Under the pieces are notes generated by a model. The model was not told the origin of the DNA and ran no database searches. It was given only the letters and a program-made list of their open reading frames with translations. A program made the translations under genes and the position numbers. Source: Sphingosinicella sp. CPCC 101087 (lineage in GTDB: Bacteria > Pseudomonadota > Alphaproteobacteria > Sphingomonadales > Sphingomonadaceae). From it: DNA of 64,000 bases. The stretch lies in the NCBI RefSeq assembly GCF_004151485.1, contig NZ_SBFF01000003.1:124001-188000 (forward strand), given 5' to 3'. Position 1 is the stretch's first letter, and each line of letters opens with the position of its first letter. Shown here piece by piece: positions 32,177 to 44,621 of the stretch.

Positions 32177-32250
32177 TGCCCCGTCGTCTAATGGTAAGAC
32201 TACGGACTCTGAATCCGTCAATCGTGGTTCGAATCCACGCGGGGCATCCA
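32177..32250 (+). tRNA. tRNA-Gln, anticodon CUG
   Basis: 74-nt cloverleaf including an encoded CCA. Acceptor stem TGCCCCG/CGGGGCA (perfect 7 bp), D stem GTCT/AGAC, anticodon stem ACGGA/TCCGT with loop CTCTGAA (anticodon CTG), T stem CGTGG/CCACG with TTCGAAT loop. It begins with U1-A72, a recognised tRNA-Gln identity feature. The discriminator base is T rather than the G of E. coli tRNA-Gln. Confidence 0.95.
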
Positions 32251-32303: not shown

Positions 32304-33677
32304 TTATGCCGGGTCGAGCAGGGCTCCCATCTCCGCGAGCGTTTCGGCTTCCATGATGCGGGACGCCATGACCTGCGCTTGCCTGCCCGTTACCGGGCGC
32401 TCGGCCCGCGCGGCGCAGTCCACGAACTTGGCGGTCAGCGCCTCGTCGCCGATGGGTTCCTCGGGGTGGCCGGCGGCGTGAGCGACGTTCAGCTGGTGCT
32501 CGGCGCCGTCGTCCGCGACGATCCTCACCGATCCCGAGGCGGCGTGGCGATGGTCCCAGTCCGGATGGTCGATCGCGACGACCTTGCGCGCGCAGGCGAG
32601 CAGGACCGGATCGTTGCGGGCCTCCGCGCAGAACGAATCGAGCCCGACCGAGCCGTGGACGAGGGCGGCCGCGAGCGTGAACGGAATGCTGAACTTGGCG
32701 TCGATCGACGTGACCGGCGCGGCCTTGGTCGCGGCCGGCGTGACCAGCATCTGCTGGACGGGGCCCACCATCACTTCGATCCGCGAAATCCGCTCATGAT
32801 CGAAGCCGGGCCGCTTCCTCAGCTCCAGCGCCGCCTGGATATAAGCGTGGGTGCCGCGGCAGCTAGGCCATGGCTTGAAGCTGACACGTTCGCCGAGGAA
32901 GGTCGTTCCCAGCCCGTCCAGCAGGGGAGAAGGATCGGGCGGAGCGCCGGCATAAGCCGCAAAGAACCCGCTCTTCCCTTCGAGAGGTGCCTGGAAGCTC
33001 CTGGCACCGTTCTTCGCCAGATCCACCGCCGTTACTGCGGCGCGGGCGACGAAGCCTTCGCGCACCGCCCGAATCGGCGAGGTCGCATCATGCTTGATCT
33101 CTCCGGGAAAGCTTGCCTGGCACAAAGCCAGGCCGATCGCATGCAGGGTCTCTTCCGCGCTCAGCCCGAGTAAACGCGCGCAGCCGGCGGTCGCGCCGAT
33201 CAGGCCGAACAGTGGCGGCGGGTACCAACCCCTCCGGTCCAGCGGCTGCACCGCCGCCAGCGAAAGCCGGCAGCAAAGGTCGCACCCGGCCGCCATTGCG
33301 GTGATGAAGGTCTTGCCGCCGATCCCCTCGCTCTCGGCCAAAGCGAGCAGTGCCGGGACCAGGCCGGCATTGGGATGGGCGGGGCCCGCATCGAACGTAT
33401 CGCCATAATCGAGCGCATGGGCGAGGGCGCCGTTCGCCAAGGCGGCGGCTTCGACCGGGACGCTTGCCGCCCCTCCGATCAGACGGGCTCGGCCTCGGCC
33501 GCGCTGCGCAAGCGCGAGTCTCCGGTAAGGGCGGGCTTCCTCGGCGAGCCCGCTTGCCGCGAGCATGACTCCCATCGAGTCGAGCAAGGCGCGCTTGGTT
33601 GCGTGCACCGTCGCGCGCGGAAGCTGGTCGTAGGCGGTTCCCGCCACATGTTCGGCCAGGATCCGGGTGAGATTCAT
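32304..33677 (-). CDS. MmgE/PrpD family protein
   Basis: 457-residue protein of the MmgE/PrpD family, which includes 2-methylcitrate dehydratase, cis-aconitate decarboxylase and iminodisuccinate epimerase. Family features: N-terminal helical domain with LANGALAHALDYGDTFD and HPNAGLVPALLALAE, and the later KPWPSCRGTHAYIQA and DAKFSIPFTLAAALV motifs. The real start is ATG 33677, with AGGAG 8 nt upstream; the frame continues open farther upstream but is not coding there. An operator palindrome ends 12 nt before the start. The substrate is unknown; context suggests catabolism of the compound handled by the adjacent operon. Confidence 0.88.
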   Translation of the reverse strand: MNLTRILAEHVAGTAYDQLPRATVHATKRALLDSMGVMLAASGLAEEARPYRRLALAQRGRGRARLIGGAASVPVEAAALANGALAHALDYGDTFDAGPAHPNAGLVPALLALAESEGIGGKTFITAMAAGCDLCCRLSLAAVQPLDRRGWYPPPLFGLIGATAGCARLLGLSAEETLHAIGLALCQASFPGEIKHDATSPIRAVREGFVARAAVTAVDLAKNGARSFQAPLEGKSGFFAAYAGAPPDPSPLLDGLGTTFLGERVSFKPWPSCRGTHAYIQAALELRKRPGFDHERISRIEVMVGPVQQMLVTPAATKAAPVTSIDAKFSIPFTLAAALVHGSVGLDSFCAEARNDPVLLACARKVVAIDHPDWDHRHAASGSVRIVADDGAEHQLNVAHAAGHPEEPIGDEALTAKFVDCAARAERPVTGRQAQVMASRIMEAETLAEMGALLDPA

Positions 33678-33688
33678 GGACGGGCTCC

Positions 33689-33702
33689 TGAAAGCGCTTT
33701 CA
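33689..33702. promoter_or_regulatory. LacI-family operator upstream of the MmgE/PrpD gene
   Basis: Perfect 14-bp palindrome TGAAAGCGCTTTCA with a central CG, the classical shape of LacI/GalR-family operators. It lies immediately before the ribosome-binding site of the minus-strand gene. The identical sequence occurs at 34804-34817. Confidence 0.8.
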
Positions 33703-33760
33703 TCAGCGGCTAGCGGCGTGCGCTCCGCTTGTCGAGCCGCCTCACGGAGCCGGCGGACGG

Positions 33761-34762
33761 TCAGGCGCTCTCGCGCGCGATGATCCGGAAGCCCACGTCG
33801 ATCCGTCTCGCCTCGAGCGATTCGCCGGCCATGCGCTTGCGCAGCACCTTCATCGCTTCCTCGGCCACGCGGCTGCCATCGACGTCGACCGAGGTGATGG
33901 TCGGTCGCATGTCCCCGGCGAGGCGCAGGTTGCCGAAGCCGGTGACGGCGACGTCGTCCGGTACCTTCACCCCGGCGGCCTGGGCCTCGACGATGAGCCC
34001 CTGAGCGATCCAGTCGGAGCCGCACACCACCACGTCCGGCCGGTGCGGCAGGTCTGCCAATCCCCGATAGGCGAGGCGTCCCTGGCCGAAATGGGTCGGT
34101 ACCTCGACCTCGAGGCTGCTCGGCTCCGCGCCGCCGTCCATCATCCACTGCTCGGCGAAGGCTCGGCCGCGGCGCTGCGAGCGGGTAGAGCGTGGTACGA
34201 CCAGATGGGGCCGCCTGTACCCCCGCTGTCTCAGGAATCGCGCCATCTCCGCGCCGGCCCGCGCATGAGAGAAGCCGATGGCGACGTCGATCGGTTCCTC
34301 CGGCAGGCCCCAGGTCTCGATGACCGTGATCGGATGCCGCCTCAGCCGGTCGCGCATCGCCTCGTCGGTGACGATGCCCGTGAGGATGATGGCGTCGACG
34401 CGCCAGGACAAGGCAGCGTTGATCTGCGACTCGAGGCGGCGATTGTCGGGCCCGGTCAACGCCAGCATGACGCTGTTCCCTTCATTCGCGAGGCCGTCGA
34501 TCATCGCCTCCATCGTGTCGTTGAAGACGGATTGGGCGATCTCGGGAACGAAGGCGGCAATCAGACGGGACCGCTTCGACGCGAGGGCGCCGGCGTTGAG
34601 ATTGGGGAGGTAGCCGGTCTCGGCGATCGCCGCCCGGATCCGTTCGGAGGTCAGTCTCGCGACCGTCGCCGGACGATTCAGGAATCGTGAAACCGTTGCC
34701 GGCGAGACTCCGGCAAGAGCGGCCACGTCGCTGATCTTAGGGGGCGGGATGCCGTCTTCCAT
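33761..34762 (-). CDS. LacI-family transcriptional regulator
   Basis: 333-residue repressor-type regulator. The N-terminal helix-turn-helix reads ISDVAALAGVSPATVSRFLN (10-29), followed by the hinge (about 50-63, ending GALASKRS) and a periplasmic-binding-protein-like effector domain (about 65-330). Two identical palindromes flank the gene at 33689 and 34804, so it most likely controls both the MmgE/PrpD gene and the P450 operon, and perhaps itself. The effector is unknown; a sugar, organic acid or aromatic compound would all fit the family. Confidence 0.93.
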   Translation of the reverse strand: MEDGIPPPKISDVAALAGVSPATVSRFLNRPATVARLTSERIRAAIAETGYLPNLNAGALASKRSRLIAAFVPEIAQSVFNDTMEAMIDGLANEGNSVMLALTGPDNRRLESQINAALSWRVDAIILTGIVTDEAMRDRLRRHPITVIETWGLPEEPIDVAIGFSHARAGAEMARFLRQRGYRRPHLVVPRSTRSQRRGRAFAEQWMMDGGAEPSSLEVEVPTHFGQGRLAYRGLADLPHRPDVVVCGSDWIAQGLIVEAQAAGVKVPDDVAVTGFGNLRLAGDMRPTITSVDVDGSRVAEEAMKVLRKRMAGESLEARRIDVGFRIIARESA

Positions 34763-34802
34763 CCGAGGGATATGGCGCGGCCACGATCAAAGAGAAAGCC
34801 TG

Positions 34803-34831
34803 TTGAAAGCGCTTTCATTCCGCGTTATCCA
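34803..34831 (+). promoter_or_regulatory. Promoter candidate of the P450 operon
   Basis: TTGAAA (34803-34808) and TATCCA (34826-34831) with a 17-nt spacer. The -35 box is inside the operator palindrome, so a bound repressor would block RNA polymerase. The predicted start site falls at or just before the P450 ATG (34839). Confidence 0.5.
34804..34817. promoter_or_regulatory. LacI-family operator between regulator and P450 operon
   Basis: Second exact copy of TGAAAGCGCTTTCA, 22 nt before the P450 start and 41 nt before the regulator start. Placement in the divergent promoter region is typical for an autoregulating local repressor. Confidence 0.85.
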
Positions 34832-34838
34832 CATTGTT

Positions 34839-36017
34839 ATGAGTCATGACTTTGACCCTATCCAGCCGGAAACGTTCGACAGTCCGCACGCTTTGTATCG
34901 ACGGCTGCGGAGCGAATGCCCGGTCGCGCACAGCGATGCGTGGGGCGGCTTCTGGGCGCTGATGAAGCACGAGGACGTGGTCGAGGCGGCTTCGGACTGG
35001 CGGACCTTCATCACCTCGCGACAGAATGTGGTCCCGAAGGTGGCCTTCACCGGCCGGCGGCCACCACTTCACCTCGATCCGCCGGAACACACGCCGTACC
35101 GGCGGGCCCTGGCGCCGCTGCTGACCGAAAGGAAGGTGGCGCGGCTCGAGCCGGCCGTCCGAAGGATCTGCCGCAGCCTGCTCGACGGGATGGTGGCGGC
35201 CGGCGGCGGCGACGTGTGCGGCGACTTTTCGGCGCCGATGACGGTGGAAGTCTTCGCCAACTGGATGAATCTCGAGGCGGAAGCGGTGGCCGACCTGACC
35301 CAGGCCGGGCGGCGCTACAATATCGCCGTCCAGTCCAACGACATCGAGGCGACGCAGGAAAACAGCCTGCTCCTCTACCAGATGGCCCGCTCGGTGGTGG
35401 AGGACCGCCGCCGCAACCCGTTGCCGGTCGACGAGGACGCCGCCAGCGCCCTGCTCGCGGTCCGGGTCGACGGAGAGCCGCTCCCCGAGGAACTGATCGT
35501 CGGCACGATCCGCCAGGTGCTCGTCGTCGGCCTGATCGCGCCGACCGTCGTCGTCGGATCGATCGCGGTTCATCTCGGCCGGGACCTGGCTCTGCAGGAC
35601 CGGCTCCGCGACGAGCCGATCCTGATTCCGGCCGCCGTCGACGAACTGCTTCGCCTTTATACCCCTTATCGCGGATTTGCCCGAACCGCGGTGCGCGACG
35701 TCAACATCGGCGGGCGCCTCATTCCCGAGGGCGAGCCCATCGCCTTGGTCTATGCCTCCGCCAATCGCGACGAGGCGGTTTTCGAGGATCCCGACCTGTT
35801 CCGGCTCGACCGGCCGAACATGAAGGAATCGGTGGCGTTCGGGCGCGGGCCCCATACCTGTGTCGGCACCGCCTTGGGCCGGCTCGAGCTGATCGTCGCG
35901 ATCGAGGAACTGCTGAAGGCTGCGCCCCGCTTCGTTCTTGCCGGAGAGGTAAAGCCGACGCGTTTCCCGGAGATCGGCGCGCTGGAGGTCCCGATCCGCT
36001 TCGAGGCGCGGAGGTGA
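34839..36017 (+). CDS. Cytochrome P450 with unusual I-helix
   Basis: 392-residue soluble bacterial P450. Heme-binding loop FGRGPHTCVG with ligand C341; ExxR at E269-R272 (ELLR); HLDPPEHTPYRR (78-89) matches the C-helix region. The I-helix, where most P450s have (A/G)Gx(D/E)TT, reads VVGLIAPTVVVG (229-240): acid and threonine are replaced by Ile and Ala-Pro. No ferredoxin or reductase gene is nearby. The ATG lacks a clear ribosome-binding site. First gene of the LacI-controlled operon, overlapping the next gene by 4 nt (GTGA). Substrate unknown. Confidence 0.92.
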   Translation: MSHDFDPIQPETFDSPHALYRRLRSECPVAHSDAWGGFWALMKHEDVVEAASDWRTFITSRQNVVPKVAFTGRRPPLHLDPPEHTPYRRALAPLLTERKVARLEPAVRRICRSLLDGMVAAGGGDVCGDFSAPMTVEVFANWMNLEAEAVADLTQAGRRYNIAVQSNDIEATQENSLLLYQMARSVVEDRRRNPLPVDEDAASALLAVRVDGEPLPEELIVGTIRQVLVVGLIAPTVVVGSIAVHLGRDLALQDRLRDEPILIPAAVDELLRLYTPYRGFARTAVRDVNIGGRLIPEGEPIALVYASANRDEAVFEDPDLFRLDRPNMKESVAFGRGPHTCVGTALGRLELIVAIEELLKAAPRFVLAGEVKPTRFPEIGALEVPIRFEARR

Positions 36018-37135
36018 GCGCCGTCATTCTCGGCACGGGCGACCTCGCCATGGATCGCGAGGATTATGACGCCTGCTTCGCCGCGACGCGAGACGTGCTC
36101 CGCGGGGCGGCGGTCACGTTCGGACAGCTCGAGACCAGTTTCGCCGAGCGTGGAGGCCGGCTCCCCCAGGCACGGCATGCGGTCCTCGCCCGACCCGACG
36201 GGGCGGCGGCGCTGGGCCGCGCGGGCTTCGACGTCGTCTCCTTCGCCGGCAATCACTGCCTCGACTGGGGCAACGAGGCCTTCTTCGAGACCCTCTCCAA
36301 TCTCGCCGCGGCGGGTGTGCGCGTCGTGGGCGCGGGCGCGGACATCGCCGCCGCCCGCAGGCCGGTCCGCCTCTCGCTCGACGATGGCACGACCGTCGCC
36401 TTCCTCGCTTATTCGAGCATCCTTCCGATGAGCTACTGGGCGGATGAGCGCCGGCCGGGCTGCGCACCGATGCGCGCCTTCACCGTCTACGAACAGATCG
36501 AGCATGATCAGCCGGGAACGCCGGCGCGGATCCACAGCTATCCCCACCGGGCCGACCTTGCGGCGATGGAAGACGATATACGGGCGGCGAAGCGCGAATC
36601 GGACCTGGTCATCGTCTCGCACCACTGGGGCATCCATTTCGTGCGGGCGACGATCGCCGATTATCAGCGGGACGTCGCCAGGGCGGCGATCGCAGCCGGC
36701 GCCGACGCCATCTTCGGCCACCATGCCCACATCCTCAAGGGCGCGGAGATCATCGACGGCAAGCCCGTCTTCTACTCGCTTTGCAACTTCGCCACCGACC
36801 TGCGGATGGATCCGGCCCACGCGGCCAGCAAGAGCTTTCAGGAAATCAGGGCGCTGGCGGAGGAGTGGGAGCCGGATTTCGACAGCCTCTACAATTTCCC
36901 GAAGGCGGCCCGGCTTTCGATGGTGGCCCGGCTCGAAGTGGCGGCGGGGCGCGTCATCCGCGCCGGTTTCCTGCCAGTCGTGATCGGGCGGGATGCCGTC
37001 CCGCAATTCGCCCCGTCCGGCAGCGCCGACCATGAGGCTGTCATCGACTATATGGCGGCCGTCACGGAGGAGGCCGGGCTGAACGCCCGCTATCGCAGCG
37101 GCGACGACATGGTCGAGCTGGAGGCCGGATCATGA
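36014..37135 (+). CDS. CapA-family metallophosphatase-like protein, cytoplasmic
   Basis: 373-residue protein of the CapA/PGA_cap (poly-gamma-glutamate capsule-type) calcineurin-like fold. Expected metal ligands are present: D10 in ILGTGDLAMD, E40 in FGQLETSF, N80-H81 in FAGNHCLDWG, the His pair in VIVSHHWGIH and GHHAHILKGAEI. Unlike capsule CapA proteins it has no signal peptide or membrane anchor, so it should act in the cytoplasm. GTG at 36014 is required because GxGD lies directly after it. It is coupled to both neighbours by 4-nt overlaps. A hydrolytic step on a P450 product is a guess. Confidence 0.8.
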   Translation: MSAVILGTGDLAMDREDYDACFAATRDVLRGAAVTFGQLETSFAERGGRLPQARHAVLARPDGAAALGRAGFDVVSFAGNHCLDWGNEAFFETLSNLAAAGVRVVGAGADIAAARRPVRLSLDDGTTVAFLAYSSILPMSYWADERRPGCAPMRAFTVYEQIEHDQPGTPARIHSYPHRADLAAMEDDIRAAKRESDLVIVSHHWGIHFVRATIADYQRDVARAAIAAGADAIFGHHAHILKGAEIIDGKPVFYSLCNFATDLRMDPAHAASKSFQEIRALAEEWEPDFDSLYNFPKAARLSMVARLEVAAGRVIRAGFLPVVIGRDAVPQFAPSGSADHEAVIDYMAAVTEEAGLNARYRSGDDMVELEAGS

Positions 37136-38157
37136 GCCCGATCCGCCGCTTCCCGCTGGAAGGCTGGGTCTTCCTCTATTTCCTCTTCTACCTGCCCAAT
37201 GTCATCGTCACGAAGCTGATCACGAGCGTCCCGCACGAGACGCTCGGACGGCCGCTCACCGGTCTCGAGACGCTCCCTGCGACGCTGATCATCAACACGG
37301 TGATGACCTACCTGTTCATCTGGTGGTCGGGCTGGCACCGCGACGCGCACGGCATCCGGATCCTTGGCCGGCGGATACCGGTCCCGACCCGATACACCCT
37401 GCTTTCGGGCGTCGGCACGGCGATGATCCTCTTCACCGTACCGCTTTCCTACACCTTCGCCGGGGTCAGCATTCCCTTCATCCAGCTGCTGATGCGCGGC
37501 GACATCCTGCTGATCGCGCCGATCATCGACCTCCTGTTCGGCCGCAAGGTCCATTGGTGGAGCTGGGCGGCCCTGGCGATGGTCGCCGGCGCGCTGGTCG
37601 TCACGCTTAGCGACCGAGGCGGACTGAACCTCCCGCCGTTGGCGATCCTGACGGTGATCGTCTACACGGCCGGCTACTTCCTGCGCCTCGCGGTCATGAA
37701 CCGGGTGTCGAAGGGCCAGGATCCGGCTGCCGTTCGCCGCTATTTCGTCGAGGAGAAGGTCTTCGCGCTCCCGCTCTCGGTGGCGGCGCTGGCGGCGATC
37801 TCCGCCTCGGGCTTCGGCACCCAGGCCGGTGAACTCGGCTTCGGCTTCATCCATGTCTGGACCGATCCGGTCATCGTGTGGCTCGTGCTGATCGCCGGGA
37901 CGCTGACCTTCGTGTCCGTCTTCTCCATCATCATCCTACTCGACCCGCACGAGAACGCCTATTGCGTGCCGCTGGAGCGGGCCTCGAGCCTGCTGGCCGG
38001 AATCATCGCCGCATACGTGCTCGCGGCGGGCTGGGGGCTCCAGATGCCGCGGATGGCCGAGCTCATCGGCGCCATCATCCTGATCAGCGCCATCGTCCTT
38101 CTGTCCGTGGCGCCCCGCCTTCGAAAAAGCAGGGCCGCCGCCCGAGCCGAAACCTGA
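37132..38157 (+). CDS. DMT/EamA-like inner-membrane permease
   Basis: 341-residue polytopic protein with about ten hydrophobic segments in two similar halves, resembling drug/metabolite transporters. The first half begins GWVFLYFLFYLPNVIV, the second near PPLAILTVIVYTAGYFLRL. Two acidic-basic cytoplasmic loops (NRVSKGQDPAAVRRYFVEEK) separate them. It is coupled to the CapA-like gene through ATGA and stands before the outer-membrane receptor, so it is the likely inner-membrane step of uptake. Family assignment is by topology and should be treated as tentative. Confidence 0.7.
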   Translation: MSPIRRFPLEGWVFLYFLFYLPNVIVTKLITSVPHETLGRPLTGLETLPATLIINTVMTYLFIWWSGWHRDAHGIRILGRRIPVPTRYTLLSGVGTAMILFTVPLSYTFAGVSIPFIQLLMRGDILLIAPIIDLLFGRKVHWWSWAALAMVAGALVVTLSDRGGLNLPPLAILTVIVYTAGYFLRLAVMNRVSKGQDPAAVRRYFVEEKVFALPLSVAALAAISASGFGTQAGELGFGFIHVWTDPVIVWLVLIAGTLTFVSVFSIIILLDPHENAYCVPLERASSLLAGIIAAYVLAAGWGLQMPRMAELIGAIILISAIVLLSVAPRLRKSRAAARAET

Positions 38158-38219
38158 ACGCCGTCCAGCCGCCGGAAGCCGACGCGAGCTCGGTGGGCGG
38201 ACATCAAGGGGAGGAAATA

Positions 38220-40868
38220 ATGAGCTACGCGAACTGCCGTACCCGCTTGCCGGTCCGTTCGTCGATCGTGACGATAGCGCTGCTCTCGGCCGCTGCCGGC
38301 TGGGCGCAGGCCCCGGAACCTTCGCGGCCCGCCGACGAGGCCGCCCGGCCGGCCGGCGACGCTGCGACGGACGACAGCACGATCGTCATCACGGGCAGCC
38401 GAATCCGCGGAGTCGAGGCGATCGGATCCAACGTCATCGCGGTGGATCAGGAACGGATCGCCCAGACCCCGGTTCTCTCGACCAACGACCTTCTGCGCCG
38501 CGTGCCGCAGGTCGTCTCCCTCGGCGCCAACCGCCAGGGCGGGACGGCTCAGAACGGCGCGGCCAATGCGACCCGCGGCGCCGGAATCAACCTTCGCGGC
38601 ATCGGCACCAACGCTACCCTGCTCCTTTACGACGGCAAGCGCTTCCCGCCGCAGGGCACGCAGGGTCAATATACCGACCCCTCGGTGCTGCCGGCCATCG
38701 CCTTGGCCCGGGTCGAAGTCGTGGCCGACGGCGCCTCGGCCATCTACGGGTCGGACGCCATTGCCGGCGTCGTCAACTTCATCCTGCGCAAGAATTTCGA
38801 CGGAATCGAGCTGCGGGCACGGTCCGGCTTCACCGAAGAAGGCCATGACGAGCAGCAGCTGGCGGGAATCGCCGGCTATGACTGGGACAGCGGCTCGGTG
38901 ATGCTTGCGGCCGAATATACCCGCAACTCGCCCTTGTGGTCGGACGACCTCGACTTCTACCAGGCGGACAACCGGTTCCGCGGGGGGCGCGATCTCCGCC
39001 CCACCTTCTGCAATCCGGGGACGATCAGCGTCGGCGGATCGACCTATGCGATCCCGCGCGGCGGCGTCTCGCCCGCCAATGTGGGCGACCTCGTCGCGGG
39101 CACGGCCAATCGCTGCTTCTACGAGACGGCGGTCATTCCGAGCCAGGAACGCATCAACGTCGTCGCGGCGATATCCCAGGACATCGGGGAGAGGATCCGG
39201 GTCTTCGCTGACGGATTCTATTCCTACCGGGATGGTATCATCCCGGCGAACAACACCTTCACGGCCACCGTGCCGAGCACCAATCCGTTCTTCGTGTCGC
39301 CGGTGCCGGGCGCGACTTCGGTCAACGTGACCTATTCGCTCGTTCCGGAACTGGGATTGTCGCTCAATCCCTATCGCGGCGAATCCTGGAACGTCATGGG
39401 CGGCGTCGAGGCGGACCTGTTCGCCGACTGGGTCGGAACCGTTTATTACTCGCACGGCGAATCCGAGGACGTGGCGGATCGGCGGCTCGGCGTGAACAAT
39501 GCCGCGCTCAACGCGGCGCTTGCAGACACCAATCCCGCCACCGCCCTCAACGTCTTCGGCGGTCTCAACAACCCCGAGACGCTTGCGCGGATTCGCGACA
39601 ACTTCTTCATCATCACCGGCCGGACCCGGCTCGACGTGGCGAACCTCCAGCTCGACGGGTCGGTCTTAGACCTGCCCGGCGGAGCGGTGCGCCTCGCAGT
39701 GGGTGGAGAATATCGGAAGGAATACACCTTTACCGACCTGATCACGGGCAGCAGCGCTTCGCAGACGAGCACGGCCGACAGCGGTTCCAGAAACGTGAAG
39801 GCGGTGTTCGGCGAGCTCTTCGTGCCCATCGTCGGGAGCGCCAATGCGCGGCCCGGGCTGCAGGAACTCTCCTTGTCGCTGGCGGCGCGCTACGAGCATT
39901 ACAGCGACTTCGGAGACACGACCAATCCGAAACTCGGCCTGACCTACCGGCCGTTCCGCAGCCTGACGCTTCGGGGCACGTACGGAACCTCGTTCCGGGC
40001 GCCGACCTTCACCGAGGTTTCGACGGTCGGCGGCGGGGCCGGTCTCTATTACGACACGCTTCCGTTCACGGCCGGCAACCTGACCGGAATCGGCATTGCG
40101 GGCGGAAATCCGGACCTTCAGCCCGAGACGGCGACGACCTGGTCGGTGGGGGCAGAGTTCGCCCCGCGGGGACTCGGGCTGGTCGCGACCGCCACCTATT
40201 TCGACATCGACTATAAGGACCAGATCCAGGCGCTCCGCGGGACGCCCGGGATACTCACCAATCCGCTCTACGCGTCGTTCGTGACCCTGAACCCGACGCC
40301 CGAGCAGGTCCAGGCCCTGCTCGACTCCGGCCTGCCGATCAACTCGGCGATCAACCCGTCGCTGGTGCAGTTCATCGTCGATGGTCGCCGGCAGAATCTG
40401 GGTCGGTCACTGGTCAGCGGAGTCGATTTCGGCCTCACCTATCAATGGGAATGGGGCGATGTCGGCTTCGATGTGGGCGCCCAGGGCACCTATTTCACGC
40501 GCTACAAGTTCGAGCCCGTCCCGGGGGTCGGGGCCTCCGACGTGCTCGGCACGATCAATTTCAGCCAGAAGTTCCGCTCTCAAGCGGATCTCGGCGTCCG
40601 CTGGGGAGAATTCCAGGGGCGCGTGACGTGGAACCATCTCGCAGGCTACCGCAACACGACGGTGAATCCGGTCCAGCAGGTCGGCGACTATGACACGGTC
40701 GACCTGTTCCTTGGATGGGACATAAGCGAACGGTTCCGCTTCTCGATCGACGTGCGCAACCTGTTCGACGAGGATCCTCCCTTCGTCGACAGCGCGACGG
40801 GATACGACCCCCAGTCGTCCAACCCCGTCCCGCGTCTGATCTCGGTCACGGCTGGGGTCCGGTTCTGA
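38220..40868 (+). CDS. TonB-dependent outer-membrane receptor
   Basis: 882-residue receptor. A signal peptide (cleavage near GWAQA, about 31) is followed by the TonB-box/plug region DSTIVITGSRIRGVEAIGSN and LRRVPQVVSLG. The plug includes GTNATLLLYDGKRFP and SAIYGSDAIAGVVNFIL, the barrel has many aromatic strands and ends in GVRF. The plug style (GSRI, IYGSDAIAGV) is that of the large sphingomonad/xanthomonad receptors used for carbohydrates and aromatics, not classical siderophore receptors. AAGGGGAGG at 38207-38214 gives a strong ribosome-binding site. The tannase-family gene follows with 1-nt overlap. Confidence 0.93.
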   Translation: MSYANCRTRLPVRSSIVTIALLSAAAGWAQAPEPSRPADEAARPAGDAATDDSTIVITGSRIRGVEAIGSNVIAVDQERIAQTPVLSTNDLLRRVPQVVSLGANRQGGTAQNGAANATRGAGINLRGIGTNATLLLYDGKRFPPQGTQGQYTDPSVLPAIALARVEVVADGASAIYGSDAIAGVVNFILRKNFDGIELRARSGFTEEGHDEQQLAGIAGYDWDSGSVMLAAEYTRNSPLWSDDLDFYQADNRFRGGRDLRPTFCNPGTISVGGSTYAIPRGGVSPANVGDLVAGTANRCFYETAVIPSQERINVVAAISQDIGERIRVFADGFYSYRDGIIPANNTFTATVPSTNPFFVSPVPGATSVNVTYSLVPELGLSLNPYRGESWNVMGGVEADLFADWVGTVYYSHGESEDVADRRLGVNNAALNAALADTNPATALNVFGGLNNPETLARIRDNFFIITGRTRLDVANLQLDGSVLDLPGGAVRLAVGGEYRKEYTFTDLITGSSASQTSTADSGSRNVKAVFGELFVPIVGSANARPGLQELSLSLAARYEHYSDFGDTTNPKLGLTYRPFRSLTLRGTYGTSFRAPTFTEVSTVGGGAGLYYDTLPFTAGNLTGIGIAGGNPDLQPETATTWSVGAEFAPRGLGLVATATYFDIDYKDQIQALRGTPGILTNPLYASFVTLNPTPEQVQALLDSGLPINSAINPSLVQFIVDGRRQNLGRSLVSGVDFGLTYQWEWGDVGFDVGAQGTYFTRYKFEPVPGVGASDVLGTINFSQKFRSQADLGVRWGEFQGRVTWNHLAGYRNTTVNPVQQVGDYDTVDLFLGWDISERFRFSIDVRNLFDEDPPFVDSATGYDPQSSNPVPRLISVTAGVRF

Positions 40869-42433
40869 TGCGCGGGTTCAAGGCGGGGACGATCCTGGCA
40901 GCGGCGGGCCTGGCGCTCGCTTCGGCCGCTGAGCCGGCCGCCGCCCAGGACTGCTCCCGTCTCGAAGGCCGGCATCCTGGGTCGGTGACCGTGGTGCGGG
41001 CGAGCGAGGTGCAGGCTGCGGGTGGCTGGACCCCGGTGCCGGCGGCGGAGCAAAGATGGCCCTCCGTCCAGGTTTCGCTCTGCCGGGTCGAGGGCGTGAT
41101 CGAGGAGAATATCGGCTTCGAGCTCTGGCTACCCTTGCCGGCGCGCTGGAACGGACGGCTGCTGGCCGCCGGGGTGGGCGGGCCTGCCGGCTTCTTCAAC
41201 TATGGAGACATGAGCCGGCGCGCGAATGAAGGGTTCGCCACGGTCAGCACCGACAGCGGGCACAAGGCGTCGAACGACCGCTGGATGGCCGACCCGCAGG
41301 CCCGGGTCGATTACGAGCATCGGGCGACGCACCTCACCACCGTGGCGGCGCGCGAGCTCGTTCGTCGCTTTTACGGTCGGGAGGCGACCCGGCGCTACTT
41401 CCTGGGCTGCTCGGGCGGTGGGCGGCAGGGCCTCAAGGAGATGCAGAACTATCCGGACGATTATCACGGCATAGTCTCGGGCGCCCCCGGACCCAACATG
41501 CCGCTGAACTCGATCAGGATGATGTGGTTCTCGCTGCTCCAGAAGTGGCAGCCGCAAGCAGCGCTGAACGATTCGGACTGGGCCCTCTACGAGTCGGCGG
41601 CGACGCGCGCCTGCGACATGACCGACGGCCTGAGCGACGGGATCATCGGCAACCCTCTGGCCTGCAGCTTCGACACCACGACCCTGCTCTGCCCGGAGGA
41701 GGAGACCAGGGGCTGTCTCACGCCGCAGAAGCTCGCCATGCTCCAGGCGATCATCGCGCCGATGCCCGACGAGAAGGGGCGGCCGATGGACGACGGGCTG
41801 TTCCCAGGGGTCAGGACCCGGCCCGGACCGCCTTCGCCGCTGCTGCGGGCGATGTGGGCGGATGCCGTGTACGACGATCCCGAGTGGGACGAGGACCGCT
41901 TCCAGCGCACCCGCGACCTCGAAGCCGTCTACCGGACCATGCCCGAGCTGCGGGCCGACCGCACCGACATCGCGCCCTTCATCGCCGCTGGCGGCAAGGC
42001 GATCATCTATCAGGGCTGGCAGGATCCCTCGGTCGTGGCGGGCCCGACCATCGACTATTATCAGGCGCTGGCCGCCGCCAATGGCGGAGTCGAAGCGCTG
42101 GCCGAAGCCGTCAGGCTGTTCCTCGCGCCGGGCATGCTTCATTGCCGCGGCGGCCCCGGCGCCGACCAGTTCGGCGGGTCGGGACAGGAGACGGCGTCTG
42201 GAGATCCCTCGCGGGACATATTGTGGGCGCTGATCGCGTGGGTGGAGCAGGGTCGTCCGCCGGACACCATCGTCGCGCGGAAGATTGAGGATGGCCGAAC
42301 CCGGTTCGCCCGGCCGCTCTGCCGCTTTCCGCAAAGCGCCCGCTATGACGGGAGCGGCGATCCGAGCGAAGCGGGCTCGTTCCGCTGCGCGCCCGACCCG
42401 CAGCTCACCCGATACGGTGCGGCGGAGCGATGA
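40868..42433 (+). CDS. Exported tannase/feruloyl-esterase family hydrolase
   Basis: 521-residue alpha/beta hydrolase of the tannase and feruloyl esterase family. Signal peptide ends near PAAAQD (27-28). Catalytic serine S182 in GCSGGGRQ; D386 in YQGWQDPS; H425 in MLHCRGG. C181 and C426 form the CS-D-HC arrangement in which a disulfide links the residues next to Ser and His, a hallmark of the family. It would release phenolic acids such as ferulate or gallate from esters outside the inner membrane. Exact ester unknown. Its stop overlaps the next hydrolase (ATGA). Confidence 0.9.
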   Translation: MRGFKAGTILAAAGLALASAAEPAAAQDCSRLEGRHPGSVTVVRASEVQAAGGWTPVPAAEQRWPSVQVSLCRVEGVIEENIGFELWLPLPARWNGRLLAAGVGGPAGFFNYGDMSRRANEGFATVSTDSGHKASNDRWMADPQARVDYEHRATHLTTVAARELVRRFYGREATRRYFLGCSGGGRQGLKEMQNYPDDYHGIVSGAPGPNMPLNSIRMMWFSLLQKWQPQAALNDSDWALYESAATRACDMTDGLSDGIIGNPLACSFDTTTLLCPEEETRGCLTPQKLAMLQAIIAPMPDEKGRPMDDGLFPGVRTRPGPPSPLLRAMWADAVYDDPEWDEDRFQRTRDLEAVYRTMPELRADRTDIAPFIAAGGKAIIYQGWQDPSVVAGPTIDYYQALAAANGGVEALAEAVRLFLAPGMLHCRGGPGADQFGGSGQETASGDPSRDILWALIAWVEQGRPPDTIVARKIEDGRTRFARPLCRFPQSARYDGSGDPSEAGSFRCAPDPQLTRYGAAER

Positions 42434-43737
42434 AGATCCTCCTCCTCGCCCTGATGGCGCTGGCAGGAAGCCAACCGGCTACCGAGAGCGCGACCGCCGA
42501 GGGCCGGACGCCGGCAGGGGGCCGATGGGCTGCGGAATATCCGGCGAACTGGAACGGGACCTTGCTCCTGTGGAGCCGCGGTTATGGCAGCAGCGACACC
42601 GTCGCTACCGCACCGCGCGGGACCCGCGAGCTGCTGCTGCGCCGGGGATATGCGCTTGCGGGGACCGAATATTCCGCCTCGGGATGGGCAGTCGAGGAAG
42701 CCGTGCCCGACCAGATCGCGACGCTGAAGGCGGTGAGCGAGCGGTTCGGACCGCCCAGGCGGGTCATCGCCTGGGGCGCCTCCATGGGTGGCCTGATCAC
42801 GATCGCGCTCGCTGAACGGCACCCCGACCGCTTCGTCGGGGCACTCAGTTCGTGCGGATCCATCGGGGGCTCGATCGGAATGATGAACATGGCGCTCGAT
42901 GGCGCTTTCGCGTTCAAGACCCTGCTCGCGCCCGAAAGCGACATCCGGCTGGTCGAGGTCGACGACGACAGGGTGAACGCCGCGCGGGTGCGCGCCGCGC
43001 TCGAGGCGGCGCAGCGAACGCCCGCGGGGCGGGCGCGGATCGCGCTGGCCGCAGCCTTGGCGGGGCTGCCGCACTGGACGGATCCCCGGGCGAGCGAGCC
43101 CGCCGAGGGTGATCATGCCGAGCAGCAGAGGCAGGCCGCGGCCGCCTTCGTCTTCGGAACCTTCCTGCCGCGTGTGGACCAGGAGAAGAGGGCGGGGGGC
43201 ATCTTTTCATGGAATAGCGGCATCGACTACCGCGCCCAGCTTCGGGCCAGCGAGCGCTACGCGCATGTCAGCGCCCTCTATCGCGAGGCCGGTCTCGATC
43301 TGGAAGCGGATCTGGACCGACTCAATGCCGCTCCCCGCATCGCCGCCGACCCGGTGGCCGTTGCCTATATGCGGGACAATTACGTTCCCAGCGGGCAGCT
43401 CCGGATCCCGGTGCTGAGCTATCATGAGATCGGCGACGGAGCGACTTCGGCCCGCCTTCAGACCGCCTATCGGGATATCGTCCGTCGCGCCGGCCGCGAG
43501 GACATGTTCCGTGCAGCCTGGGTGAGGCGCGCGGGACATTGCGGCTTCGCCGCGGCGGAGCATCTCGCCGCCCTGGAGGCGCTCGAGACCAGGATAGCCA
43601 TTGATCGCTGGCCGGCGTCCCCGGAGCGGCTCAACGACCTGGCCGAGAAGGTCGGGGAGGGCGAGGGACGCTTCACCCGCTTCCGCCCGCCGCCGCCGCT
43701 CCGCCCCTGCAGCGCATTCGAGAGGATTTGCCGATGA
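42430..43737 (+). CDS. Exported alpha/beta hydrolase
   Basis: 435-residue predicted alpha/beta-hydrolase-fold enzyme. A short signal peptide (MKILLLALMALAGSQPATES) is followed by a core whose opening (YPANWNGTLLLWSRGYG) resembles the tannase opening (LPARWNGRLLAAGVGG). Nucleophile S118 in AWGASMGGL and probable catalytic H370 in RAGHCGF. Between them is a helical cap (about 150-300). I do not recognise a specific family beyond serine hydrolase. Coupled to both neighbours by ATGA overlaps, so it probably acts on the same substrate or a product of the upstream esterase. Confidence 0.75.
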   Translation: MKILLLALMALAGSQPATESATAEGRTPAGGRWAAEYPANWNGTLLLWSRGYGSSDTVATAPRGTRELLLRRGYALAGTEYSASGWAVEEAVPDQIATLKAVSERFGPPRRVIAWGASMGGLITIALAERHPDRFVGALSSCGSIGGSIGMMNMALDGAFAFKTLLAPESDIRLVEVDDDRVNAARVRAALEAAQRTPAGRARIALAAALAGLPHWTDPRASEPAEGDHAEQQRQAAAAFVFGTFLPRVDQEKRAGGIFSWNSGIDYRAQLRASERYAHVSALYREAGLDLEADLDRLNAAPRIAADPVAVAYMRDNYVPSGQLRIPVLSYHEIGDGATSARLQTAYRDIVRRAGREDMFRAAWVRRAGHCGFAAAEHLAALEALETRIAIDRWPASPERLNDLAEKVGEGEGRFTRFRPPPPLRPCSAFERICR

Positions 43738-44621
43738 AGAGTCTGATCGCCGCATTCCTGCTCGTGGCTGGCGAGCCGCAGTCCGCCGGCTCGGGGCCGA
43801 CGCCCGCCATCATGGTGTCCGAAGCGACCCTCCCCACCCATACCGTCTATCGCCCCGCGAACCTCGATCGGGGCGACCGCCTCCCTCTGCTCGTCTGGGG
43901 CAATGGCGGCTGCGTCAATCTGGGCAACAGCGCCGCCGAGTTCCTGACCGAAATCGCATCCCACGGCTATCTCGTGGTCGCCGTCGGGCCGATCGGCTCT
44001 CCGCCGGCGAGGGCGCCCCGTCCCGCATCTGCCGAAACGCCTCGTCCGCACGATCCGGACGGTGTCTGGCGGCCGCAGACCGACACCAGGGCGATGATCC
44101 GCGCGATCGACTGGGCGCTCGACGAGAACAGCCGGACCGACAGCCCCTATCGGGGCCGGATCGATCCCACGCGCATCGCCGTCGCCGGACACAGCTGCGG
44201 AGGGCTGCTCGCGCTCGACGCCAGCCGCGATCCGCGCGTGACCACGAGCCTGATCATGAACAGCGGGGCCCTCAACGATGGCACGCACCCGCAAGGCGTG
44301 GAGGTCACCAAGGCCTCGCTTCAGCAGATTCACGGGCCAATCCTCTACGTGACCGGCGGACCGGATGACGTGGCCCATCCCAACGCGGTCGACGATGTCA
44401 GCCGGATCCGGCACGTGCCCGTCGTCCTGGCATATGACGCTTCCGGCCATGGCGGCACCTATCGCCAGCCGCGCGGCGGGGCCTATGCCCGAATCGCCGT
44501 GGACTGGCTCGATTGGCGGTTGAAGGGCGATGCCGAGGCCGCGGCTGCCTTCCTGGAAGGCGGCCGGCTGCGCAGCGATCCGGCCTGGACGATCAGGCCC
44601 GGCCAGCCCCGGAGGGAATGA
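43734..44621 (+). CDS. Exported alpha/beta hydrolase (dienelactone-hydrolase/chlorophyllase-like)
   Basis: 295-residue alpha/beta hydrolase with a short hydrophobic N-terminus (MKSLIAAFLLVAGEPQ). LPLLVWGNGGC (50-60) forms the oxyanion region, nucleophile S154 lies in VAGHSCGGLLALDA, with probable D211 or D212 in VTGGPDD and H239 in ASGHGG. This layout resembles dienelactone-hydrolase and PET-hydrolase-like folds. The ATG at 43734 overlaps the previous stop and is preceded by AGAGGA. It is the last gene of the LacI-controlled operon before a 190-nt gap. Confidence 0.78.
   Translation: MKSLIAAFLLVAGEPQSAGSGPTPAIMVSEATLPTHTVYRPANLDRGDRLPLLVWGNGGCVNLGNSAAEFLTEIASHGYLVVAVGPIGSPPARAPRPASAETPRPHDPDGVWRPQTDTRAMIRAIDWALDENSRTDSPYRGRIDPTRIAVAGHSCGGLLALDASRDPRVTTSLIMNSGALNDGTHPQGVEVTKASLQQIHGPILYVTGGPDDVAHPNAVDDVSRIRHVPVVLAYDASGHGGTYRQPRGGAYARIAVDWLDWRLKGDAEAAAAFLEGGRLRSDPAWTIRPGQPRRE

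Follow-up and report, generated by a model that had tools for sequence, protein, structure and literature searches.

A LacI-linked uptake and ester-degradation gene cluster of Sphingosinicella sp. CPCC 101087 with a probable role in use of a plant hydroxycinnamate conjugate

Introduction

Which compound would a bacterium take up and dismantle with a TonB-dependent outer-membrane receptor (TBDR), three exported hydrolases, a permease, a cytochrome P450, a CapA-like enzyme, and an MmgE/PrpD-family enzyme, all beside a gene for a LacI-family regulator? These genes occupy positions 32304 to 44621 of a 64,000-nucleotide stretch of Sphingosinicella sp. CPCC 101087 (contig NZ_SBFF01000003.1, positions 124,001 to 188,000), hereafter the window. 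Our analysis indicates that the cluster is probably a LacI-controlled island for use of a plant hydroxycinnamate conjugate, that is, an ester of a ferulate-, p-coumarate-, or caffeate-type acid, and the system belongs to the known field of aromatic-ester catabolism. Hydroxycinnamate esters are common plant phenolics of soil, leaf, and root. If the reading is true, a conserved uptake-to-cleavage regulon would explain how sphingomonads, caulobacters, and others reach bound phenolics, a CapA-family enzyme would have a catabolic role, and a P450 group with non-standard oxygen-activation residues would be defined. No paper on this gene set was among the matches listed in open-licence PMC text (titles and abstract starts), which is weak evidence of absence.

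Gene content and layout of the cluster

All nine genes are intact by open reading frame (ORF) check. The MmgE/PrpD gene (hereafter PrpD) and lacI run leftward, and a rightward block from the P450 to the last hydrolase gene spans 34839-44621. Within that block, the P450/CapA, CapA/DMT permease, tannase/Hyd8, and Hyd8/Hyd9 junctions overlap by 4 nucleotides each and TBDR/tannase by 1; the single gap, of 62 nucleotides, lies between the DMT permease and the TBDR. A preliminary description of this DNA, made from its letters alone, had reported this gene set with its overlaps and shared operators, and the account held when families were matched by Pfam or structure and junctions were re-read. Start codons were improved relative to the first ORF listing for PrpD (33677), P450 (34839), tannase (40868), and Hyd9 (43734). 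By eye, the three hydrolases and the TBDR carry signal-peptide-like N-termini, and the P450, CapA, and PrpD proteins do not. Hyd8, Hyd9, TBDR2, FerA-like, and LigC-like are labels coined in this analysis. The features are as follows.

32304..33677, minus strand: MmgE/PrpD-family enzyme, 457 amino acids (Pfam PF03972 and PF19305; PDB 2hp3/2hp0)
33689..33702, no strand: LacI-type operator TGAAAGCGCTTTCA, upstream of PrpD (genome motif scan)
33761..34762, minus strand: LacI-family regulator, GntR/IdnR-like (sugar-acid type) by family score (Pfam LacI; NCBIfam)
34804..34817, no strand: operator TGAAAGCGCTTTCA between lacI and P450 (genome motif scan; related sites in relatives)
34839..36017, plus strand: cytochrome P450, 392 amino acids (Pfam p450; heme motif FGRGPHTCVG; I-helix VVGLIAP)
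36014..37135, plus strand: CapA-like metalloenzyme, 373 amino acids (PF09587; metal-binding motifs intact; model available)
37132..38157, plus strand: putative inner-membrane DMT-superfamily permease, 341 amino acids (fold matches of the structure model)
38220..40868, plus strand: TonB-dependent outer-membrane receptor (PF00593 and PF07715, Plug)
40868..42433, plus strand: tannase/feruloyl-esterase, exported as judged by eye (PF07519, E 2e-89; CSGGG, HCRGG)
42430..43737, plus strand: alpha/beta-hydrolase Hyd8, exported as judged by eye (weak Peptidase_S9/S33/Esterase matches; GASMGG)
43734..44621, plus strand: alpha/beta-hydrolase Hyd9, exported as judged by eye (weak PETase/PAF-AH/Esterase matches; GHSCGG)

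A simple LacI sugar operon was considered and rejected because the nine genes include no glycosidase or sugar kinase.

Conservation in relatives

A scan of named genomes yielded 224 relatives of the P450, and the best 80 loci, most of them with flanks of up to 10 kb, were used for comparison. Contig ends truncate some of these loci, and the home-made gene caller may have overlooked genes or assigned wrong starts. The 80 loci also overlap the set of family genomes described below (L035, L036, L038, and L073 are from the same genomes as L085, L096, L150, and L099). The controls were 20 loci of 20 kb around non-orthologous P450s from the source organism's family only; they were the next-best P450 matches rather than a random draw, and one was replaced on grounds of contig size.

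At an identity threshold of at least 45%, which drops weaker matches, the 80 loci contained LacI in 50, DMT permease in 41, CapA in 34, PrpD in 34, tannase in 21, Hyd8 in 20, Hyd9 in 18, and TBDR in 17. With no threshold, the counts were 57 for LacI, 41 for DMT, 41 for CapA, 38 for PrpD, 38 for MFS transporters, and 36 for TBDR, and for the hydrolases 26 (tannase), 26 (Hyd9), and 21 (Hyd8). None of the nine-gene partner families was found at 45% identity in the 20 control loci, one of which kept a match to query family C5 at that level. Without a threshold, the controls gave a distant TBDR2 in 11 of 20, aldehyde dehydrogenase in 3, ECH in 2, and MarR, MFS2, and query family C8 in 1 each. P450, CapA, DMT, TBDR, and tannase occurred together in 17 of the 80 loci (15 with all at 45% or more), and in 14 the P450-CapA-DMT-TBDR order matched that of the window. 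CapA was followed directly by DMT in 28 of the 34 loci with both.

The preliminary description had named absence of synteny outside this strain as grounds for abandoning its proposal; instead, part or all of the set was carried by Sphingomonas, Novosphingobium, Sphingobium, Caulobacter, Asticcacaulis, Massilia, Parahaliea, and metagenome bins of other groups. Within the family, a P450 orthologue (at least 49% identity) was present in 13 of 249 genomes, the source genome included, from 11 genera; among the matches listed, the next-best P450s in these genomes reached at most 36%. CapA orthologues 78-80% identical to that of the cluster were found in 3 of 25 other genomes of the genus. In two of these three the set is split, with P450, a second CapA, PrpD, MFS, and a second receptor about 65 kb from CapA-DMT-TBDR-tannase.

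A chance cluster or strain-specific assembly was also considered, and was rejected because the gene set recurs in other genomes.

Link to hydroxycinnamate catabolism

Within 10 kb of the P450, the 80 loci held aldehyde dehydrogenase (13 loci), hydratase/lyase (12), FerA-like ligase (11), transporter (8), and PobA (7) genes at 45% identity or more; the FerA-like label follows from the domain set and from likeness to SYK-6, the best NCBIfam models being other CoA ligases, below cut-off. At least one of hydratase/lyase, aldehyde dehydrogenase, and FerA-like ligase was present in 14 of 80 loci compared to 0 of 20 controls, and at that identity the controls also lacked the transporter and PobA. The p-hydroxycinnamoyl-CoA hydratase/lyase assignment passes NF006588 (cut-off 276), with 476 bits for a copy in the source genome and 453 for a relative, and the source genome's PobA passes the TIGR02360 cut-off. 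Among the family genomes, 13 of the 13 that carry the P450 and 45 of the 236 that lack it had a hydratase/lyase gene over the cut-off (Fisher p 1.9e-9, not corrected for phylogeny/kinship or for catabolic richness; 13 genomes, 11 genera).

The source genome carries three hydratase/lyase genes, on contigs C3, C34, and C8, with the cluster itself on C23; a LigB, 78% identical, is also on C34. A second locus in the same genome (C3:151363-165991, comprising L078:9864-19901 and L159:1-4992) holds a CapA paralogue 37% identical to the cluster CapA, an S15 hydrolase, a TonB receptor, and a Hyd9 paralogue, and continues directly into MarR, aldehyde dehydrogenase, hydratase/lyase, AMP-dependent ligase, MFS, and PobA genes. 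The C3 locus thus repeats the logic of the cluster, and the same logic occurs twice in one genome.

Relatives place similar genes next to the cluster. In G134 and G063, aldehyde dehydrogenase, hydratase/lyase, PobA, and LigB/LigC-like genes lie beside it, and several Sphingomonas loci have a FerA-like ligase, hydratase/lyase, aldehyde dehydrogenase, MarR, and an aromatic-acid-type transporter (TIGR00895, under cut-off). A Rieske protein with a VanA C-terminal domain stands at the cluster edge in Sphingomonas (L083:19385-20413 and L087:19611-20645), beside MarR- and transporter-type genes. L102 contains LigB/LigC-like genes, two Amidohydro_2 proteins, and a PrpF protein, and L084 also has two Amidohydro_2 proteins; we take these Amidohydro_2 and PrpF proteins to be LigI/LigJ/tautomerase. 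L095 holds a protocatechuate 3,4-dioxygenase beta subunit, a second dioxygenase, a lyase, and PobA, and L105 a dioxygenase, a lyase, and a hydrolase-CMD fusion. Judged by family, genes for protocatechuate cleavage of both kinds adjoin P450 loci in some relatives. The best models for the relatives' MFS proteins were D-galactonate and HpaX (4-hydroxyphenylacetate) permeases, below cut-offs. A MarR-type regulator adjoins the genes for the aromatic half, and CouR is described in PMC4737184 as a MarR-type regulator with p-coumaroyl-CoA as its ligand.

The guess of a plant phenolic ester in the preliminary description is therefore backed by the neighbors in relatives, by co-occurrence in genomes, and by the second locus, and can be sharpened to a hydroxycinnamate conjugate.

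The LacI regulator and its operators

Two perfect 14-nucleotide palindromes lie 11 nucleotides from the PrpD ATG and 21 nucleotides from the P450 ATG. At 0-1 mismatch, no further site occurs anywhere in the genome (4,702,612 bases), and a control pattern gave 0. LacI is thus a probable local regulator, with both of the genome's sites at its own cluster. A looser 12-mer search of the window with 2 mismatches added 4 further sites; the 6 found compared to 2.88 expected are within chance.

A related site (up to 2 mismatches) was present within 260 nucleotides upstream of the P450 in 44 of the 50 loci with a LacI at least 45% identical, compared to 7 of the 30 loci without such a LacI and 5 of 1600 shuffled upstream stretches. 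A scan of the 50 LacI-bearing loci in full gave 69 sites, 64 of them near a gene start, and 0 for the reversed control. By gene start, sites were counted at P450 (41), LacI (23), MFS (16), Hyd9 (8), Hyd8 (5), and TBDR2 (5), and more rarely at PrpD (4), CapA (2), MarR (1), TBDR (1), C27 (1), and others (2), some being shared between two divergent genes. The P450 count is circular because the search pattern was written after the P450-upstream sites had been seen; the counts at other genes are not. PrpD genes had a site near their start in 4 of 32 cases, and none of the sites in these 50 loci lay near the start of a hydratase/lyase, aldehyde dehydrogenase, or FerA-like gene. Together with the synteny across the 80 loci, the conserved operator upstream of the P450 bears out the earlier idea of a coherent, LacI-linked uptake and ester-degradation unit.

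The best NCBIfam model for LacI was the HTH-type regulator GntR (209 bits, under the cut-off of 400). We infer that the LacI protein binds the operator sites, and our guess is that it senses a sugar-acid-like ligand.

The P450

The P450 has the heme motif FGRGPHTCVG, and its I-helix reads VVGLIAP; the acid-alcohol pair is missing from this stretch, which aligns with AGNETT in CYP125. In its clade (n = 75) the heme motif was found in 75 of 75 proteins and [AG]Gx[DE]T in 0 of 75; the I-helix instead reads VGxxAP in 74 (66 VVGxxAP and 8 LVG/AVGxxAP), and in one it was not located. Since the acid-alcohol pair is lacking, normal O2 activation by this clade appears doubtful. P450eryF and CYP152 are P450s with substrate-assisted or peroxide chemistry, and by analogy such chemistry is a possibility here.

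A conserved pair, consisting of a protein with two CxxCH heme motifs and a weakly OmpA-like protein, was observed near the P450 in about 30 of the 80 loci (for example L036:487-2756, L073:3431-5643, and L090:17568-19837). The CxxCH protein had no Pfam match and a faint MbnH-family match in NCBIfam. One control locus also has the pair (L174:15955-17460, G127), there beside another P450.

The CapA-like and MmgE/PrpD enzymes

The CapA protein matches PF09587 (PGA_cap) with 212 bits compared to a cut-off of 27. Residues D10, E40, N80, H81, H204, H237, H239, and N258, which we presume to be metal ligands, are invariant in 13 of 13 aligned sequences, and the motifs GD, GNH, SHHWG, and GHHAH are present. 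Its structure model (predicted local distance difference test, pLDDT, 92.8) had the epimerase MslH as top fold match (E 4e-27, TMq 0.82, 23% identity); however, the score against the MslH equivalog NF038314 was 90.9 bits, short of the cut-off of 700. The label of metallophosphatase in the preliminary description is not to be taken as a statement of function, because the modeled fold is nearer to the MslH epimerase than to phosphatases.

In a PDB search, the closest solved relatives of PrpD were IDS-epimerase (2hp3/2hp0, E 1e-38), followed by cis-aconitate decarboxylase (E 2e-27). The single matching NCBIfam equivalog, 2-methylcitrate dehydratase, scored 56.6 bits against a cut-off of 950, which was not reached.

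The permease and hydrolases

The permease matched no Pfam family. Its model (pLDDT 83.9) matched SLC35B1 in Foldseek (E 4e-06), and also TPT, YddG, and LicB, which places the predicted fold in the DMT superfamily. The tannase carries CSGGG at 182 and HCRGG at 426 (522-amino-acid reading from 40865), corresponding to the CS and HC elements. Its nearest solved structure was the fungal feruloyl esterase B-2 (E 9e-67), followed by MHETase (E 2e-54). By its sequence the protein falls in the tannase family (PF07519), which includes hydroxycinnamoyl esterases. Hyd8 and Hyd9 match alpha/beta-hydrolase models weakly, with GASMGG present in Hyd8 and GHSCGG in Hyd9.

Proposed mechanism and alternative explanations

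From the protein families, we infer that the TonB receptor would carry the conjugate across the outer membrane, the tannase-type esterase with Hyd8 and Hyd9 would cut its ester bonds in the periplasm, and the DMT permease would take the product across the inner membrane. The freed hydroxycinnamate would then enter a MarR-linked, CoA-dependent pathway encoded elsewhere in the genome, comprising a CoA ligase, p-hydroxycinnamoyl-CoA hydratase/lyase, aldehyde dehydrogenase, PobA, and protocatechuate cleavage. The P450, the MslH-like CapA, and PrpD, under LacI control, might act on the non-aromatic half or on the intact or modified conjugate; the substrates of these three enzymes are guesses.

Several findings, besides the uncorrected Fisher p value, weigh against a hydroxycinnamate conjugate. 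Inspection by eye of the listed flanking ORFs in the window showed no hydroxycinnamate gene next to the cluster, and the link comes by way of relatives, co-occurrence, and a paralogous locus on another contig. In the available DNA, none of the three genes (hydratase/lyase, aldehyde dehydrogenase, FerA) was seen at 45% identity or more in 66 of the 80 P450 loci. Eight of the 80 had no other queried family at all (L109, L111, L135, L137, L139, L144, L149, and L153, some on short contigs), and the role of the P450 may therefore be wider than this cluster. Many Novosphingobium loci pair the P450 with MFS, a second receptor, and the CxxCH and OmpA-like proteins instead; a link between the P450 and the esterases is therefore not obligatory. 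One operator site also precedes a MarR gene, and the tannase family also contains MHETase.

A more specific proposal, which we put forward tentatively and consider less likely than not, is that the cluster encodes a pathway for the entire conjugate that is widespread in proteobacteria and so far undescribed, in which the P450, the CapA epimerase/hydrolase, and PrpD would convert, or open entry into, a chiral non-aromatic half that LacI senses. In such a pathway the P450 would perhaps work by substrate-assisted or peroxide-dependent chemistry. The MslH-like CapA, the IDS-epimerase-like PrpD, the LacI with its resemblance to sugar-acid regulators, and the relatives' MFS together give a weak indication that the LacI-sensed partner is a chiral hydroxy-acid or sugar-acid.

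These same resemblances raise the alternative that a chiral hydroxy-acid or sugar acid such as tartrate, malate, isocitrate, glucarate, or phenyllactate is the partner, with CapA and PrpD epimerizing or dehydrating it and LacI sensing it. The closest fold of CapA, the closest solved relative of PrpD, the gluconate/idonate regulators that score best with LacI, the D-galactonate and HpaX models that score best with the linked MFS, and the position of LacI-type sites away from the hydroxycinnamate enzyme genes are all consistent with it. However, all four resemblances are at family level, below curated cut-offs or across large distances, and a P450 has no obvious job on a hydroxy- or sugar acid; on balance we consider this account somewhat unlikely.

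The ester could instead be a hydroxycinnamoyl quinate of the chlorogenate type, making the cluster an alphaproteobacterial counterpart of the Acinetobacter hca-qui-pob-pca island. In two Novosphingobium loci, genes for a glucose/quinate/shikimate-type PQQ dehydrogenase and a class II dehydroquinase (L132:2255-4772 and L143:2262-4779) do lie no more than 10 kb from the P450, and PobA and protocatechuate genes adjoin other P450 loci. In L143 the dehydrogenase scored 460 bits, below the 833 cut-off, and the dehydroquinase 173 bits with PF01220; the L132 dehydroquinase was assigned by near-identity. Quinate-type genes were found in only these 2 of 80 loci, which are nearly alike, both from Novosphingobium, and therefore probably reflect one event. 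Neither locus holds a close cluster relative except the P450, and the esterases are absent there; the best match to the PQQ dehydrogenase in the source genome is partial and 36% identical; and quinate use needs no P450, CapA, or PrpD. We keep quinate as an alternative partner but consider it unlikely.

A module that detoxifies or scavenges some natural product of plants or microbes would fit the P450-only loci and the DMT fold, which includes exporters; the P450 would then inactivate the compound, and the hydroxycinnamate link would be incidental, through a shared habitat. Import by TonB, the number of esterases (three), and the hydroxycinnamate gene sets found immediately alongside in several genera argue against such a module, and we regard it as quite improbable. 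Degradation of a synthetic or natural aromatic diester of the terephthalate or phthalate type is the least probable account. The tannase is homologous to MHETase, Hyd9 weakly matches PETase and BHET hydrolase models, and in a Novosphingobium subterraneum locus two alpha subunits of ring-hydroxylating oxygenases (L145:15171-19116) are encoded no more than 10 kb from the P450; however, feruloyl esterase B outscores MHETase for the tannase, and the recurring families among the neighbors scanned in relatives are hydroxycinnamate and protocatechuate genes.

Flanking features

A tRNA-Gln (CTG) gene at 32177-32250 lies about 53 bases off the cluster end; such genes are a typical integration landmark. 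No integrase was seen by eye near the cluster among the listed ORFs of the window, and G+C content shows no marked change near the tRNA-Gln gene and cluster end. On the right flank, an NRDE gene is present in 5 of 26 genomes of the genus, the source genome included; none of the other 8 flank genes tried was found within 8-11 kb on either side of the NRDE gene in the 4 other carriers.

Comparison with known systems

The dca-pca-qui-pob-hca cluster of Acinetobacter baylyi ADP1 serves chlorogenate and hydroxycinnamate catabolism; PMC2265553 has a paper on it among its references. The likeness lies in an esterase, a transporter, and CoA-dependent breakdown of hydroxycinnamates, with pob and pca genes in linkage. 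To our knowledge, that cluster has no P450, CapA-like enzyme, DMT permease, PrpD, or LacI regulon.

Xanthomonas-type loci share a TonB receptor, LacI, and exported hydrolases with the cluster, which differs in having esterases in place of glycosidases and in the addition of P450, CapA, and PrpD. PMC1790865 describes loci of this type, for plant carbohydrate scavenging, as combining a TonB receptor with a regulator and hydrolases. The feruloyl esterase B/tannase family (PF07519, including MHETase) is represented by the cluster tannase, with a family match and the CS and HC elements; unlike that family, the cluster tannase is genetically coupled to a TonB receptor.

MslH, a CapA-family enzyme, is the lasso-peptide C-terminal Trp epimerase, and PMC9266682 describes it as epimerizing the peptide C-terminus. 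Its H295, mutated in structure 8ith according to the title, aligns with H239 of the cluster CapA. A RPGCAPMRAHTVYEQIEHDQPGTP-like stretch is present in 12 of the 13 aligned CapA sequences, the paralogue in the source genome being the exception, and in part in MslH.

Also related are the sphingomonad ferulate/p-coumarate genes (ferA, ferB, aldehyde dehydrogenase, and a MarR-type regulator), families of which adjoin the cluster in relatives; PMC12997858 lists ferA and ferB for SYK-6 and for Novosphingobium. The fer genes begin at the free acid, whereas the cluster described here would act upstream of them, in uptake and ester cleavage, with a LacI-type operator of its own.

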